DNA of 64,000 bases from Paramagnetospirillum magnetotacticum MS-1. Its GTDB lineage: Bacteria > Pseudomonadota > Alphaproteobacteria > Rhodospirillales > Magnetospirillaceae. The position numbers and the translations under genes are program-made. The notes below the pieces were generated by a model. That model had not been told where the DNA came from. It searched no databases and saw nothing but the letters and a program-made list of their open reading frames with translations. Shown piece by piece: positions 37,630-59,510 of this stretch (the first letter of the stretch is position 1; each line of letters starts with the position of its first letter). The stretch spans positions 124,001 through 188,000 of the forward strand of contig NZ_JXSL01000022.1 in NCBI RefSeq assembly GCF_000829825.1, written 5' to 3'.

Positions 37630-37863
37630 ATGAAGACCATGGATGACAGAACCGCGTTCCTGGGCCGAAGCCTGATGAACGCCACGGATTTCGCCAATTG
37701 GGGCCTGCCCGCCATCGCCTATTTCAAGCACGAGGACAATGGCGGCCAGGGCGGCTGGTCCATCCACGCCGCTGACGGCACGGTGATCGGCGCGGCGCCG
37801 TCGCGCGACACCGCATTCGCCGCCATCCTTCAGCACGACATGGAGCCCATGAGCGTGCATTGA
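37630..37863 (+). CDS. DUF1150 family protein
   Basis: 77 residues. The sequence LPAIAYFKHEDNGGQGGWSI and IGAAPSRDTAFAAILQHDMEPMSVH match the DUF1150 pattern, small alphaproteobacterial proteins of unknown function found beside hsp20. It is 2 nt after hsp20. Its stop is followed within 6 nt by the two-hairpin 3' element described below. Confidence 0.82.
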   Translation: MKTMDDRTAFLGRSLMNATDFANWGLPAIAYFKHEDNGGQGGWSIHAADGTVIGAAPSRDTAFAAILQHDMEPMSVH

Positions 37864-37869
37864 CCAACT

Positions 37870-37973
37870 CGCACGAAAGTCCTTCGGCCTGACGGCCTCA
37901 GTGTACTTTCGTGCGGGAAGAATAAGGAAAAGCCCGCGCTTGGGGCGGCCCGGCGCGCGGGCTTTGGCTTTCT
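37870..37973 (+). repeat. Two-hairpin 3'-end element, copy 1
   Basis: Hairpin I has an 11-bp stem CGCACGAAAGT / ACTTTCGTGCG (37870-37915), enclosing CCTTCGGCC..GGCCTCAGTGT. A purine-rich spacer leads to hairpin II, AAAGCCCGCGC / GCGCGGGCTTT (37929-37965), with loop TTGGGGCGGCCCGGC and a T-rich tail. It begins 6 nt after the DUF1150 stop in sense orientation. The other copies are at 38010-38107 and 55893-55994 (both minus). Confidence 0.85.
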
Positions 37974-37977
37974 TGTC

Positions 37978-38007
37978 CCCAATCCGAGACGAAGGTCTCG
38001 GATTGGG
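37978..38007. terminator. Hairpin between the two convergent 3' elements
   Basis: CCCAATCCGAGAC, GAAG and GTCTCGGATTGGG form a 13-bp perfect stem. It lies between copy 1 and copy 2 of the 3' element, where convergent transcripts from DUF1150 and ptsN would meet. There is no strong U-run. Confidence 0.5.
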
Positions 38008-38009
38008 TA

Positions 38010-38107
38010 AGACGAGTCAAAAATGGGCGCGAAGCCGCCTTAAGCCCATTTTTTCAATATACTCTCGCGGAAAGTACACCGAGGCGCAGCCGAGGGACTT
38101 TTCGCGA
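38010..38107 (-). repeat. Two-hairpin 3'-end element, copy 2
   Basis: On the minus strand, hairpin I is TCGCGAAAAGT / ACTTTCCGCGA (38065-38107) enclosing CCCTCGGC..GCCTCGGTGT. Hairpin II is AAAAATGGGC / GCCCATTTTT (38019-38053) with loop TTAAGGCGGCTTCGC, followed by GACTCGTCTT. It begins 2 nt after the ptsN stop in sense orientation. Confidence 0.85.
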
Positions 38108-38109
38108 AA

Positions 38110-38574
38110 TCACGCCGCCCGGCTGGCCGGGCTTTCGGTCAGCAGGGCGTAAAGGGCATCGGCATTGTCGGTGCCGCGCAGCTTCTCGCACACGCTTTTG
38201 TCGCGCAGCAGGCGCGAGACGCGGGCCAGGGCCTTGAGGTGGTCGGCACCGGCGGATTCGGGCGCCAGCAGCAGGAAGATCAGGTCCACCGGCTGTTCAT
38301 CGATGGATTCGAAGGCGATGGGCTTTTCCAGGCGGGCGAAAACGCCATAAAGCTTTTCCATGGTGGGAAGCTTACCGTGGGGGATGGCGATGCCGTTGCC
38401 CACGCCGGTGGTGCCCAGACGCTCGCGTTCCAGCAGCACGTCGAAGATGGCCCTTTCGTGAAGGCCGGTAATCTCGGCGGCCTTCTTGGCCAAATCCTGC
38501 AGCGCCTGCTTCTTGGATGCGGCGCGCAGATTCGGAATGACGGAGGCCGGGCTGATCAGATCGGTGATTTCCAT
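38110..38574 (-). CDS. ptsN: PTS IIA-like nitrogen regulatory protein
   Basis: EIIA-Ntr, 154 residues. The phosphorylated His lies in GNGIAIPHGKLPTM, with FLLLAPESAGADHLKALARVSRLL downstream. It receives phosphate via PtsP-NPr and controls potassium and nitrogen/carbon processes in other bacteria. It lies downstream of rpoN in the same direction, but the hpf/raiA gene that normally sits between the two is absent; only 165 nt without an ORF remain. Confidence 0.93.
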   Translation of the reverse strand: MEITDLISPASVIPNLRAASKKQALQDLAKKAAEITGLHERAIFDVLLERERLGTTGVGNGIAIPHGKLPTMEKLYGVFARLEKPIAFESIDEQPVDLIFLLLAPESAGADHLKALARVSRLLRDKSVCEKLRGTDNADALYALLTESPASRAA

Positions 38575-55350: not shown

Positions 55351-55887
55351 ATGACCGATCAGCCCGTCGCCATCGGGGTCGTCACCATCTCTGACCGCGC
55401 CAGCCGGGGGGTCTATGAGGACAAGGGCGGCCCGGCCATCATTGCCGAGATGAACCGCTTTCTGTCCACGCCCTGGCGGCCGGTGGCGCGCGTCGTCGAG
55501 GACGAGCAGGCGTTGATCGAGGCGACCTTGAAGGAACTGGCCGATGTGGAGGGCTGCTCCCTGATCGTCACCACGGGGGGCACCGGCCCGGCGCCCCGCG
55601 ATGTGACGCCCGAGGCTACCGAAGCGGTCTGCGACAAGATGATGCCGGGTTTTGGCGAACTGATGCGCGCCGAGAGCCTGAAGGTGGTCCCCACCGCCAT
55701 CCTGTCGCGCCAGACGGCGGGAATCCGTGGGAGGAGCCTGATCATCAACCTTCCGGGCAAGCCCTCGGCCATCGCCGATTGCCTGAATGCGGTGATGGCC
55801 GCGGTGCCCTATTGCATCGATCTGATCGGCGGCGCCTTCATCGACACCAATCCGGCGGTTTGCAAGGCCTTCCGGCCCAAGAAATAG
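55351..55887 (+). CDS. mog: Molybdopterin adenylyltransferase
   Basis: 178 residues. [40 protein letters not shown] and [20 protein letters not shown] are typical of MogA. Adenylylates molybdopterin before metal insertion by MoeA. SD CAGGAG. No other molybdenum gene is adjacent. Its 3' side faces a copy of the two-hairpin element belonging to the convergent kinase gene. Confidence 0.92.
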
Positions 55888-55892
55888 AACAT

Positions 55893-55994
55893 AAAGAGTC
55901 GGAAAGCGGGCGCCGGGCCGCCCCAATCCCGCTTTTCTCCGTATTTTCGTCTCGGGAAAAGTACACTGAGGCGAAGCCGAAGGACTTTTCCCGA
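55893..55994 (-). repeat. Two-hairpin 3'-end element, copy 3
   Basis: On the minus strand, hairpin I is TCGGGAAAAGT / ACTTTTCCCGA (55952-55994), enclosing CCTTCGGC..GCCTCAGTGT. Hairpin II is AAAGCGGG / CCCGCTTT (55903-55935) with a loop ATTGGGGCGGCCCGGCG, then a T-rich tail. It begins 4 nt after the kinase stop in sense orientation. Confidence 0.85.
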
Positions 55995-55998
55995 AGGT

Positions 55999-57618
55999 CT
56001 AAGCCGGGAAGGTGACCGACACCACCGTTCCCTCGTCCACGAAGATGTGGGAGCGCCCGCCCAACTGGCGCGACAGGGCGCGGATCAGGCCGATGCCGAT
56101 GCCACGGCCCGGCTTGTCGGGCATGCCGACCCCGTTGTCGCGGACCGTGAAGTGCCATTCGCCCGCTTCGCGCATCAGGGTGATCCAGATGGTGCCGCGC
56201 CGCCCGTCGGAAAAGGCGTGCTTCATGGCGTTGGACAAAACCTCGTTGGCCAGCATGCCGAGCGGCACGGCGCGCTCCAGATCAAGGATTCCTTCCACCT
56301 CGACCTCGACGGTGACGCCGCCCGGCGACGAGGAATAAGACCCGGCCAGAGCCTCGGCCAGCTTGCCGAAATAGGTGCCCAAATCCACATTGGAGGCTAG
56401 ATTGCGTTCGTAAAGGGTCTGGTGCACCAGACCCATGGAATGGATGCGGTCCAGCGCGTCCTTCAGCGTCGCCTTCACCTTCTCGTCGGTGACGTGCAAT
56501 GACTGCATGGTCAGCAGGCTGGAAATGACCTGAAGATTGTTCTTCACCCGGTGGTGGACTTCCTGGAAGAGAACGTCCTTTTCCGTCAGGGCATTGGTCA
56601 GCTCACGGGTGCGGCGTTCGCCTGTGGTCAGCAGCCGCGCCTCGTGCCGCAGGCTTTCGCTGGTGATGGCCGCCAGGATCAGCATCAGCGCCATGGCCGT
56701 GACGAACAACAGGGCATTGCGCCGGCTGCGGATTTCCCATTCGCGGAAAACCGCCTCGATGGGCGTGCCCGAGGCGACAACCATCTCCATATCCGTGAGA
56801 TTGCGGAACGCCACCAGCCGCTCGATACCGTCCACGACCGAGGTGGACCGGAATACGCCAGCCTGTTCCCGGGCGAAATCGGTGAATGGCGCCTTGGTGG
56901 TGTCGAAGCGGGTAAAGGTGGCCTCGGGCAGGGGATAGCGGGCCACCAGGCCGCCATCCGTGTGCGAGACCAGGAAGATGGATCGCGGCTCGGGCTGCAT
57001 GTCGCGATAAAAGCCGATGAAGTAGTCGGTGTTGATGGCGATCTCCGCCACGCCCCGGGGCCGCCCCCCGCCGCCGGGAATGGCCCGGCTGAAGATGATG
57101 ACCCGTCCCTGGTCTCCGCGTCCGGGCACCACGGCACTCATCACCGTGTGGTCCGGGCGCTTCATGGCGCGGGTGAAATAGTCGCGCTGAATCGCATTGG
57201 CGGCAAACAGGCCCAGGCGGTCGATGGCCAGAACAGGGTCTCCGCGTTCGTCGTGAATGGCGGCGCCGACGCCGTGGGGCAGGCTGGTCAGGAGATTATC
57301 CAGCCACTCCCGATCCTTGCCCGAGGCTCTGAGATCCGCCAGCGGCCGATCGCCCAGATGGGCGATGACGGTGCCCAGATGGGCGTGGCTGGCGCCATGG
57401 GCCGCGCGCGTATGGGATTCCACCAGACGGGCCGACAGGCGGAGATTGGTGCTCCAATCGGCCAGGGTCGCCTGATAATCGAACCAGGTCAGGGTCGCCA
57501 GTCCGGCTATGCCGCCCAGTACCGCGATGGCGATGATCAGGGCCAGCAGCAGCCGGGGACGCGGCAATCGCGACGGCCGGGCGGCATCAGGCTCCTTTTC
57601 CCCGTAGCCGCCAGCCAT
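55999..57618 (-). CDS. Sensor histidine kinase, HisKA_2 family
   Basis: 539 residues. TM1 ~30-50, a periplasmic Cache-like sensor at ~55-290 (ANAIQRDYFTRAMKRPDHTV; INTDYFIGFYRDMQPEPRSI), TM2 ~300-322, then a DHp domain with VLFQEVHHRVKNNLQVISSL and HATPase_c motifs (LANEVLSNAMKHAF, DNGVGMPDKPGRGIGIGLI). HisKA_2 kinases often act in stress or light signalling with atypical regulators; no response regulator is adjacent. Ligand unknown. 2 nt after cobT, so they may share a transcript. Confidence 0.88.
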   Translation of the reverse strand: MAGGYGEKEPDAARPSRLPRPRLLLALIIAIAVLGGIAGLATLTWFDYQATLADWSTNLRLSARLVESHTRAAHGASHAHLGTVIAHLGDRPLADLRASGKDREWLDNLLTSLPHGVGAAIHDERGDPVLAIDRLGLFAANAIQRDYFTRAMKRPDHTVMSAVVPGRGDQGRVIIFSRAIPGGGGRPRGVAEIAINTDYFIGFYRDMQPEPRSIFLVSHTDGGLVARYPLPEATFTRFDTTKAPFTDFAREQAGVFRSTSVVDGIERLVAFRNLTDMEMVVASGTPIEAVFREWEIRSRRNALLFVTAMALMLILAAITSESLRHEARLLTTGERRTRELTNALTEKDVLFQEVHHRVKNNLQVISSLLTMQSLHVTDEKVKATLKDALDRIHSMGLVHQTLYERNLASNVDLGTYFGKLAEALAGSYSSSPGGVTVEVEVEGILDLERAVPLGMLANEVLSNAMKHAFSDGRRGTIWITLMREAGEWHFTVRDNGVGMPDKPGRGIGIGLIRALSRQLGGRSHIFVDEGTVVSVTFPA

Positions 57619-57620
57619 GC

Positions 57621-59510
57621 TCACCTCATCCGGCGGCGGCCGCCCGCAGGCTCGGCCTCGTCATCGAACAGGGAGGTCAGCTGGCGCATCATGGTGCCGC
57701 CCAGTTCCTCGGCATCCATGATGGTGACGGCGCGGCGGTAATAGCGGGTGACGTCGTGGCCGATGCCGATGGCCACCAGTTCCACCGGCGAGCGGTTCTC
57801 GATGAAGGCGATGACGTCGCGCAGATGCTTTTCCAAAGTATTGCCGGGATTGGCCGACAAAGTGGAATCGTCCACCGGCGCGCCGTCCGAAATGACCATC
57901 AGGATGCGGCGCTGTTCCGAGCGCGAGATCAGGCGGTCATGGGCCCATAACAAGGCCTCGCCGTCGATATTCTCCTTCAAGATGCCTTCTCTGAGCATCA
58001 GGCCCAGATTGCGGCGCACGCGGCGCCACGGCGCGTCGGCGGCCTTGTAGACGATGTGGCGCAGATCGTTGAGGCGGCCGGGATTGGTGGGCTTGCCCTC
58101 GGCCTGCCACTTCTCGCGCGCACTTCCGCCCTTCCAGGCCCGTGTGGTGAAGCCCAGCACCTCAACCTTGACGCCGCAGCGTTCCAGGGTGCGGGCTAAG
58201 ATATCGGCGCTCATGGCGGCCACGGTGATGGGCCGGCCGCGCATGGAACCGGAATTGTCAATGAGCAGGCTGACCACCGTATCGCGGAAATTGGTTTCCT
58301 TCTCGATCTTGAAGGACAGCGAGTGCATGGGATTGGCGACGATGCGGGCCAGACGCCCGGTGTCGAGCATACCCTCCTCCAGGTCGAAATCCCAATTGCG
58401 GGTCTGCTGGGCCATCAGCTTGCGCTGCAGGCGGTTGGCCAGTTTGGCCACCACGCCTTGCAGATGGGAAAGCTGCTGGTCCAACTGTCGGCGCAGGCGG
58501 TTCAGCTCTTCGGGTTCGCACAGATCCTCGGCGGTGACGATCTGGTCGTACTGGGTGGTGTAGGGCTTATAGGGCTGGTCCTGAAAGGCGCGCGAATTGG
58601 ACAGCTGCTCTTGGGCTTGCTTGGACGGGCCGCCCGGTTCCTCGGTGCCCGAGCCGGTCAGCATCATTTCCTCACCGGAATCGCTGCCTTCGTCCTCGCC
58701 GCTGCCCTCGGAAGAGCCCGGAGCCTGGGTGTCGCCCTCCTGCTGCGGGCCCTGGCCCTCCTGCTCGCCTTCCTTTTCCTGGCCAGCGCCCTGGGCGTCC
58801 TGTTCCTGGCTGCTTTGCTCGGAATTTTCGGAATCCTCGGCTTCGGAGGCCTGATCGGTTCCGAAATCCAGGTCGCTCAGAAGTTTGTGCAGCCCCTTGG
58901 CGAAGGCCTCCTGATCGCGCAGCAGGTCCTTGAGGCTGTCCAGCGTGGGACCGGCCTTGGCCTTGACCTCGTCGCGCCACAGATCCACGGCCGTCCTGGC
59001 CGATGGCGGCGGCTCCAGCCCGGCGAAGATCTCGCGGGCGATCAGGCGCATGGCGTCGGCCAGGGGCACCTGTTCGCGCCTGACGGCACGGTCCAGGCCT
59101 TCGGCGCGGGCCTTGACCTCCAGCACTTCGGCGATATTGAGGGCGGCGCCGGGCATCAGCCGCGCCCCCAGGGCCTCGACGCGGGCCTGCTCGACCATGT
59201 CGTAGATCTTGCGGGCGTCGGGCAGCTGCGGCATGCGCCGCACATGCACCGTGTCGTCGTGATAACGCAATCTCAGCGCGATGGCGTCGGCGGTGCCGCG
59301 CAACCGGGCCAGATCGGCGGGCAGGATGGTCCGCGGCGGCGCGGGCAGCCGGATCTCGGTGCCGCGCACGCTGCCGTTTCCGGCGGCAAAGCCCACATCC
59401 AGATCATTATGGCCCGACATGGCCTTCAGCGTGGCGGCGGTGGTGCGGCGGATGGTGTCGCCGATGCTTTCGCCCCTGCCGCCGTCCAAGGCCTTCGCGT
59501 TCTGTGACAC
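57621..59510 (-). CDS. cobT: Cobaltochelatase subunit CobT
   Basis: 629 residues. The N-terminal half contains [21 protein letters not shown] very acidic, Gln/Glu/Gly/Ser-rich linker at ~225-300 follows, then a C-terminal VWA domain with [20 protein letters not shown] and [10 protein letters not shown]. CobT forms the chaperone-like AAA+ complex with CobS that helps CobN insert cobalt in the aerobic B12 pathway. The GTG start ([10 protein letters not shown]) gives the normal length. cobN is not in the window. Confidence 0.92.

Follow-up and report, generated by a model that had tools for sequence, protein, structure and literature searches.

A MITE-like element with terminator-like hairpins and a probable preference for stop codons, with a putative old copy between DUF1150 and ptsN in Paramagnetospirillum magnetotacticum

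The sequence between the convergent DUF1150 and ptsN genes of Paramagnetospirillum magnetotacticum MS-1 is best explained, with a probability of about 0.68, as an old, constrained fossil of a stop-codon-targeting, MITE-like mobile element that would serve as a bidirectional terminator. We analysed a window of 64,000 nucleotides (assembly GCF_000829825.1, contig NZ_JXSL01000022.1, positions 124,001 to 188,000), in whose numbering all coordinates are given, together with other genomes. The reading draws on inverted ends, target-site duplications, stop-codon registers, covariation and orthologous retention, all established by computation. By these computations the evidence is strong that the element inserts at stop codons and duplicates its target, and we infer from sequence that the element would actually transpose, terminate transcription and benefit its host; its anatomy and retention suggest that it may also protect mRNA.

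The window holds three two-hairpin units, at 37868-37964 (+), 38019-38107 (-) and 55902-55995 (-), each in sense with the preceding gene and 2-7 nt past its stop codon. Units 1 and 2 oppose each other between the convergent DUF1150 gene (37630-37863, +; PF06620) and ptsN (38110-38574, -; PF00359, PTS_EIIA_2; start codon picked by eye), and unit 3 lies behind a dCache/HisKA_2/HWE histidine kinase gene (55999-57624, -). All three stand at about the places given in an earlier sequence-only reading, which had put the third at 55893-55994, and the gaps that it reported are close to those found here: from stop to outer stem we counted 4-7 nt for DUF1150, varying with the stem length assumed (6 nt had been given), and 2 nt for ptsN, as claimed, both in sense orientation, and 3 nt for the histidine kinase gene. 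Unit 1 comprises hairpin I (37868-37918, +), whose core AAAGTCC..GTGTACTTT occupies 37876-37909, and a terminator-like hairpin II (37930-37964, +) with an apical GGG-GCGG-CCC and a T-rich tail. Unit 2 comprises hairpin II (38019-38053, -; apical AAG-GCGG-CTT) and hairpin I (38064-38107, -), and a perfect central hairpin at 37978-38007, present with changes in orthologs, separates the two units. In unit 3, hairpin II (55902-55936, -) also lies just past the stop of an opposite-strand MoCF_biosynth (mogA-like) gene (55351-55887, +; PF00994), and hairpin I (55953-55995, -) has an ortholog in another genome of the genus (G012, locus L075); no partner end was found for this unit.

The 13-base pattern AAAGTCCNTCGGC matched exactly three times in the window, and the same three matches were the only ones in the whole genome (4,523,935 bases, 36 contigs). 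A covariance model built from the three copies, R1, returned those units there with E-values from 1.4e-12 to 4.8e-15, the next match being at E 0.0145, and a second model built from 60 copies, R2, gave the same result. Since by pattern and by both models the genome holds three units alone, a repeat dispersed inside it was ruled out. Nor are units 1 and 2 the independent recurrent copies for which they had been taken; they belong to a single insertion, of which they form the two ends in inverted orientation. Elements of Magnetospirillum fulvum share this inverted-pair architecture, so that the stretch 37868-38107, bounded by the two units, is read as one such element, much older, at which no target duplication was recognisable.

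Carried to relatives, as had been suggested, R1 matched 23 of 60 genomes at E <= 0.1, P. magnetotacticum included (16 with a best E <= 1e-3 and seven weakly), and M. fulvum (G005) alone gave 74 matches, mostly in inverted pairs. The M. fulvum elements are non-coding, measure 84-413 bp, chiefly 264 or 303 bp, start with GTC and end with GAC; both ends were present at 37 of 41 loci. At these fixed ends, 30 of the 37 complete elements carried an exact 6-bp direct repeat, which was missing in seven, two of them having a 7-bp repeat instead. The 264-bp copies (n = 16) had a mean identity of 98.5%, and the 303-bp class (n = 11) a mean of 85% and a minimum of 35%, the comparison being ungapped and some copies probably left unturned. 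Among the 60 matches listed, the 264-bp copies were 92-100% identical, nearly all at least 96%, to elements of a near relative, M. fulvum MGU-K5 (G015), compared with 87-91% for the flanking DNA at the one site compared. At the one site checked for absence, the relative lacks the element and has an unrelated stretch of about 130 bp instead, which is therefore no clean empty site.

Of the 37 complete elements, 22 were flanked by convergent genes, 10 by tandem genes and one by divergent genes, and four fell inside a called ORF; other junctions in the same loci were convergent in 10 of 53. No autonomous copy, with an ORF between paired ends, was found in the loci examined or among the matches listed, the genomes being incomplete. 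Across the at least 120 stretches of a multi-genome pattern scan, a script counted 33 opposed pairs less than 700 bp apart and none farther. Carriage by plasmids or phages was set aside: one M. fulvum element had no match in plasmid and phage collections, and a pattern search of viral contigs gave just two matching stretches.

Placement relative to stop codons was scored at 28 M. fulvum sites, the 30 with an exact duplication minus two that were not scorable. At 18 of them the duplicated 6 bp contained or touched a neighbour's stop, and at 10 no stop was there. These sites bear on whether the element could be an ordinary MITE, belonging to some insertion sequence yet to be discovered whose target contains TA, and found near stops as the survivor of selection against other insertions. 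Consistently with such a target, T is favoured at position 1 of the duplications and A at position 2, with TA at the far end following by symmetry, and insertions into genes or promoters would be expected to be purged. However, a control that admitted only sites breaking no called gene, with motif weights taken from the same duplications, expected 8.4 stops at the duplication (3.3 unweighted) and never exceeded 16 in 100,000 simulations, selection beyond that model being possible. Together with the discrete registers described below, this makes an ordinary MITE quite unlikely.

The registers emerged from stop distances. Using ORFs of at least 100 codons, with gene ends called by simple ORF rules without annotation, 40 of 75 M. 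fulvum units had a sense ORF ending -2 to 16 nt upstream, compared with 82 of 2050 random positions, and 28 of these 40 distances were exactly 11 or 15 nt. In the 15-nt register (12 units) the stop is formed by the first three bases of the duplication; in the 11-nt register (16 units) the duplication ends in TA, and the first G of the element completes TAG. Nine more of the 40 distances were 1 nt and probably reflect frames that end at an internal TGA of the element. Stop-codon proximity is, at least partly, an insertion preference.

Outside M. fulvum, units lie mostly 7-16 nt past stops. A sense stop just upstream was found for 18 of 20 units in two Asticcacaulis genomes (21 of 1000 random positions), 24 of 32 in M. 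moscoviense (34/950), 9 of 17 in genome G052 (21/500) and 67 of 99 in 80 loci of the multi-genome scan (130/4000), so that the claimed position in sense near stops was borne out in Asticcacaulis and in the 80 loci, against about 2-4% of random positions. The other 40 scan loci gave 31 of 49, making 98 of 148 units in the at least 120 scan loci together; hairpin II, pair-context, GANTC and stop-distance counts from the scan used the 80. Many of the Asticcacaulis units (L361-L380) stand behind genes that resemble, by Pfam, rpoA, secA, leuA, aconitase and an ATP synthase subunit. No inverted partner was seen for the 20 Asticcacaulis units taken with 1-kb flanks, and two other loci of that genus (L199, L214) have one. 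Past hairpin I, two further Asticcacaulis loci (L182, L225) both run into another shared repeat with TACCCCTCCGTC.

The occurrence of the element family across bacteria is patchy. The scan matched Magnetospirillum, Asticcacaulis, several Rhodospirillales, Rhodobiaceae, Hyphomicrobiales and Rhizobiaceae, as well as metagenome-assembled genomes labelled Rickettsiales, Stygiobacter, Coriobacteriales/Coriobacteriia, Dehalococcoidia and Chloroflexi, whose labels or bins may be wrong, and in 16 scan-matched genomes R2 counted 1-48 units each. The genome titled Stygiobacter (records VBWB01; L205, L211, L248, L250) has 48 units that are very Magnetospirillum-like, and its bin or label may be mistaken. 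In the class, at least 4 of 385 genomes had a match, P. magnetotacticum included, with 15 candidates scored per genome; in the Caulobacteraceae 1 of 40 did, and this was the search centre itself (Asticcacaulis endophyticus, G441). This patchiness, together with the 6-bp target duplications and the inverted paired ends, argues that the element is mobile.

Hairpin I is built on the core AAAGTCCYTCG...CTCRGTGTACTTT, which is broken by a UC/UC internal loop and by two bulges of one U each. That this core is conserved while the stems change in a compensated way, as had been claimed, was confirmed in the three-copy alignment, in which 97.9% of cells pair (as high in 1 of 500 shuffles) and both sides have changed at 6 of 16 pairs (as many in 4 of 500 shuffles). 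Among 60 diverse copies, 215 cells had changed on both sides compared with 71.5 in shuffles, pairing reached 88.4% compared with 71.9%, and four of the six variable outer pairs showed all four Watson-Crick types; two of five measures did not rise above shuffles (double-change pairs 11 vs 9.9, pair types 32 vs 36.8). This 60-row set (A2) came mostly from an exact-core pattern scan, and the invariance of its core is thus partly imposed. RNAalifold, unprompted, recovered 16 of the 19 hairpin I pairs. When segments were folded with their surroundings and compared with shuffles, copy 1 stood out clearly (z -4.9) and copies 2 and 3 modestly (z -2.3 and -2.1); for the copy 2 segment the minimum-energy fold differs from the proposed hairpin I.

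In hairpin II, an apical stem of three pairs is capped by the loop [GA]CG[GA], and the outer stem is free. This hairpin was found in 87 of 149 unique units (mean 1.0 in shuffles, which preserve base content only), lying 31-37 nt past hairpin I in 84 of the 87, and a CAAG-loop form was found in 13 of the 149, compared with a mean of 0.3 in shuffles. When any tetraloop was accepted, 118 of 149 units passed compared with 56.1 in shuffles, and the loop therefore carries much of the signal. The proposal that both arms of hairpin II change together was upheld: in 51 units with distinct stems, 219 cells had changed on both sides compared with 60.5 in shuffles, a figure that is inflated since this set (A3) was selected for pairing (apical 3/3 and at least 6 of 10 outer pairs, one false row, L391, being removed), and the expected GCGG loops are present in units 1 and 2. 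At least five T in the following 8 nt were found after 49 of 87 hairpins II, a moderate signal, and a simple terminator scan gave one site at units 1-2 (0.8 in shuffles) and none at unit 3. Hairpin II, with its conserved stem and [GA]CGG loop, is terminator-like, and this anatomy, with its retention, suggests that it may terminate transcription.

The history of the DUF1150-ptsN junction was followed in 17 genomes of the genus, in all of which ptsN was found. Seven carry the element there (G000, G008, G009, G010, G012, G013 and G016); in two (G011, G014) DUF1150 adjoins ptsN with a short unrelated sequence between them and no element, in G003 the two genes are 1.3 kb apart, and in the fetched ptsN loci of the other seven, M. 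fulvum included, DUF1150 was not found. On the ptsN side, G009 and G012 lack the unit; in G008 (L311) an insert of about 30 nt interrupts it, splitting the hairpin I core and leaving both stem arms, and in G016 (L314) another sequence, repeat-like and containing CGTCATGGCCGGGCTTGACCCGGCCATCC, stands in its place. Across the seven DUF1150-side orthologs, assigned by synteny, the 24 core positions are the same bar one compensated Y-R pair in G013, and the outer arms differ while remaining complementary, the search pattern having required the core. Of the 12 arm positions (delimited by eye), 8 differ between G010 and G016, compared with 8 of 77 third positions in DUF1150 and 12 of 155 in ptsN, which may understate neutral change; en-bloc turnover of the arms by conversion from other copies is possible. 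In G013 (L316) compared with G010 (L313), the apical loops of hairpin I look swapped between the element's two ends, as would follow from recombination of the cores.

The constraint may act on RNA or on DNA: orientation and terminator shape favour RNA, whereas mismatches in the outer stems of hairpin I point the other way. Over all loci collected, 106 of 133 distinct arm pairs were at least 5/6 Watson-Crick, compared with about 7% for shuffled partners, and imperfect outer stems had, on the sense strand, more A-C mismatches (28) than G-U wobbles (8), the reverse of what sense-RNA pairing alone predicts and thus an argument against a purely RNA reading; the families of hairpin I are related and share arms, so that the mismatches do not count as independent events. 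DNA hairpins are recognised by structure in attC- or IS200-like logic, and the constraint could similarly lie on a DNA hairpin, in one or both strands, read by a recombinase or transposase. This would be compatible with the mobility that we propose and would differ on what keeps the stems. Free stem sequence with complementarity kept and the A-C excess speak for it, but the orientation is consistently sense to the upstream gene, orthologous copies without sign of activity keep core and stems, and arm sharing weakens the mismatch count, which leaves a DNA-only constraint a small yet real chance.

A structured RNA of the host at mRNA 3' ends, be it terminator, stabiliser or protein site, dispersed but not itself mobile and acting through its hairpins in the transcript only, would accommodate the 18 Asticcacaulis units in sense past stops, several behind the housekeeping-like genes mentioned above, as well as the core kept in orthologs and the terminator-like hairpin II. 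It is nonetheless unlikely given the 6-bp duplications and near-identical copies in M. fulvum, the lack of the element in most related genomes searched, and the A-C mismatches. The sequence-only reading had suggested such an RNA; its sense placement past stops and the terminator-like hairpin II stood, whereas mobility had not been foreseen and the excess of A-C over G-U tells against a purely RNA reading. The underlying observation withstood scrutiny on the two points that could have undone it, random placement relative to stops and uncompensated stem changes.

In the preferred explanation of a stop-codon-targeting mobile terminator, each end of a short, non-coding, MITE-like element would bear an inward-pointing hairpin I, its bulged core invariant, and next to it a terminator-like hairpin. 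Insertion would duplicate 6 bp of the target; it would favour stop codons and mostly take place where genes converge, and one register would have the first base of the element complete the stop codon (TA from the target, G from the element). On insertion each flanking gene would gain hairpin I and a terminator in its own sense, and old copies could lose one end while the other is kept under constraint. More tentatively, and at clearly less than even odds, this may be a class of mobile DNA whose target is the stop codon itself, restored by the first base of the element, and which is moved by an unlinked enzyme that reads the folded hairpin core rather than a linear end; once inserted, it would turn into a terminator for the host, the two arms of its stems changing in step at more than the neutral rate and the core not at all. 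Aiming at stop codons would offer mobile DNA a nearly harmless route into a compact genome, and an element that gives each neighbour a terminator would readily supply new gene ends, a natural experiment in which mobile DNA turns into a regulatory part. It would also add a structured family without an Rfam 15 match in this window, and it raises the question of which enzyme recognises a hairpin core whose stems are free and makes cuts staggered by 6 bp at stop codons.

Among known systems, a known Rfam RNA was rejected: the Rfam check that had been proposed gave no match at the gathering threshold in the window (Rfam 15), and a permissive search of 37800-38160 gave 11, the best being Leu_leader at 32.7 bits (E 4.2e-5) compared with a gathering threshold of 50. 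A literature search by title and abstract, with subscription papers mostly outside it, found no description of the element. The bacterial MITEs RUP, Correia/NEMIS and ERIC are characterised, in excerpts of PMC10969869 and PMC2229807, as short, non-coding and mostly intergenic, with inverted ends, target duplication and stable hairpins. Our element resembles them in being short (84-413 bp) and non-coding, with inverted hairpin ends in M. fulvum and an exact 6-bp target-site duplication in 30 of 37 complete copies there. It differs in having at its ends bulged hairpins whose stems are free in sequence yet complementary, in a 6-bp duplication that falls at stop codons, and in providing either side with a terminator-like hairpin; no parent insertion sequence with the same ends was found in the loci examined or among the matches listed. 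SPRITE, in the excerpt of PMC10969869 a pneumococcal repeat resembling a rho-independent terminator, is likewise a dispersed repeat that looks like an intrinsic terminator, a likeness taken from its description only, and comes from a different host.

The Caulobacter CIR (Chen and Shapiro 2003, as outlined in an excerpt of PMC2229807) is an intergenic repeat of about 110 nt with two hairpin arms and a linker, found in Alphaproteobacteria and carrying a GANTC site at the terminal loop. The length of about 110 nt, the two linked hairpin arms, the intergenic position and the class are, as far as that outline goes, common to CIR and our unit. Identity with CIR was rejected, however, as GANTC was found in 0 of 179 hairpins I, and it was found in 9 of 179 hairpin II zones; 39 of 40 sampled Caulobacteraceae genomes had no match.

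REP sequences and REPINs, with their RAYT, are imperfect palindromes that occur singly or as inverted pairs, often 3' of genes, and so do our units. The bulges and the lack of any linked transposase seen would further suit a REPIN-like element that a RAYT (Y1) transposase encoded elsewhere mobilises, and the corresponding domain, PF01797, is present in four (G448, G449, G450, G453) of the 13 high-copy genomes, defined as searched genomes with at least 12 unit matches. It was not found in the other nine (M. fulvum, three Asticcacaulis, G052, G451, G452, G454 and G455), where a highly divergent RAYT could be missed, and was present in 8 of all 29 genomes searched. Moreover, the element leaves 6-bp duplications, which to our knowledge are not expected from RAYT action. 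This absence from nine high-copy genomes led us largely to reject RAYT and REPINs, which with the duplications we hold to be very improbable as an explanation. Taken as a whole, the element behaves like a MITE and a mobile terminator, and is closest by shape to CIR and REPINs.
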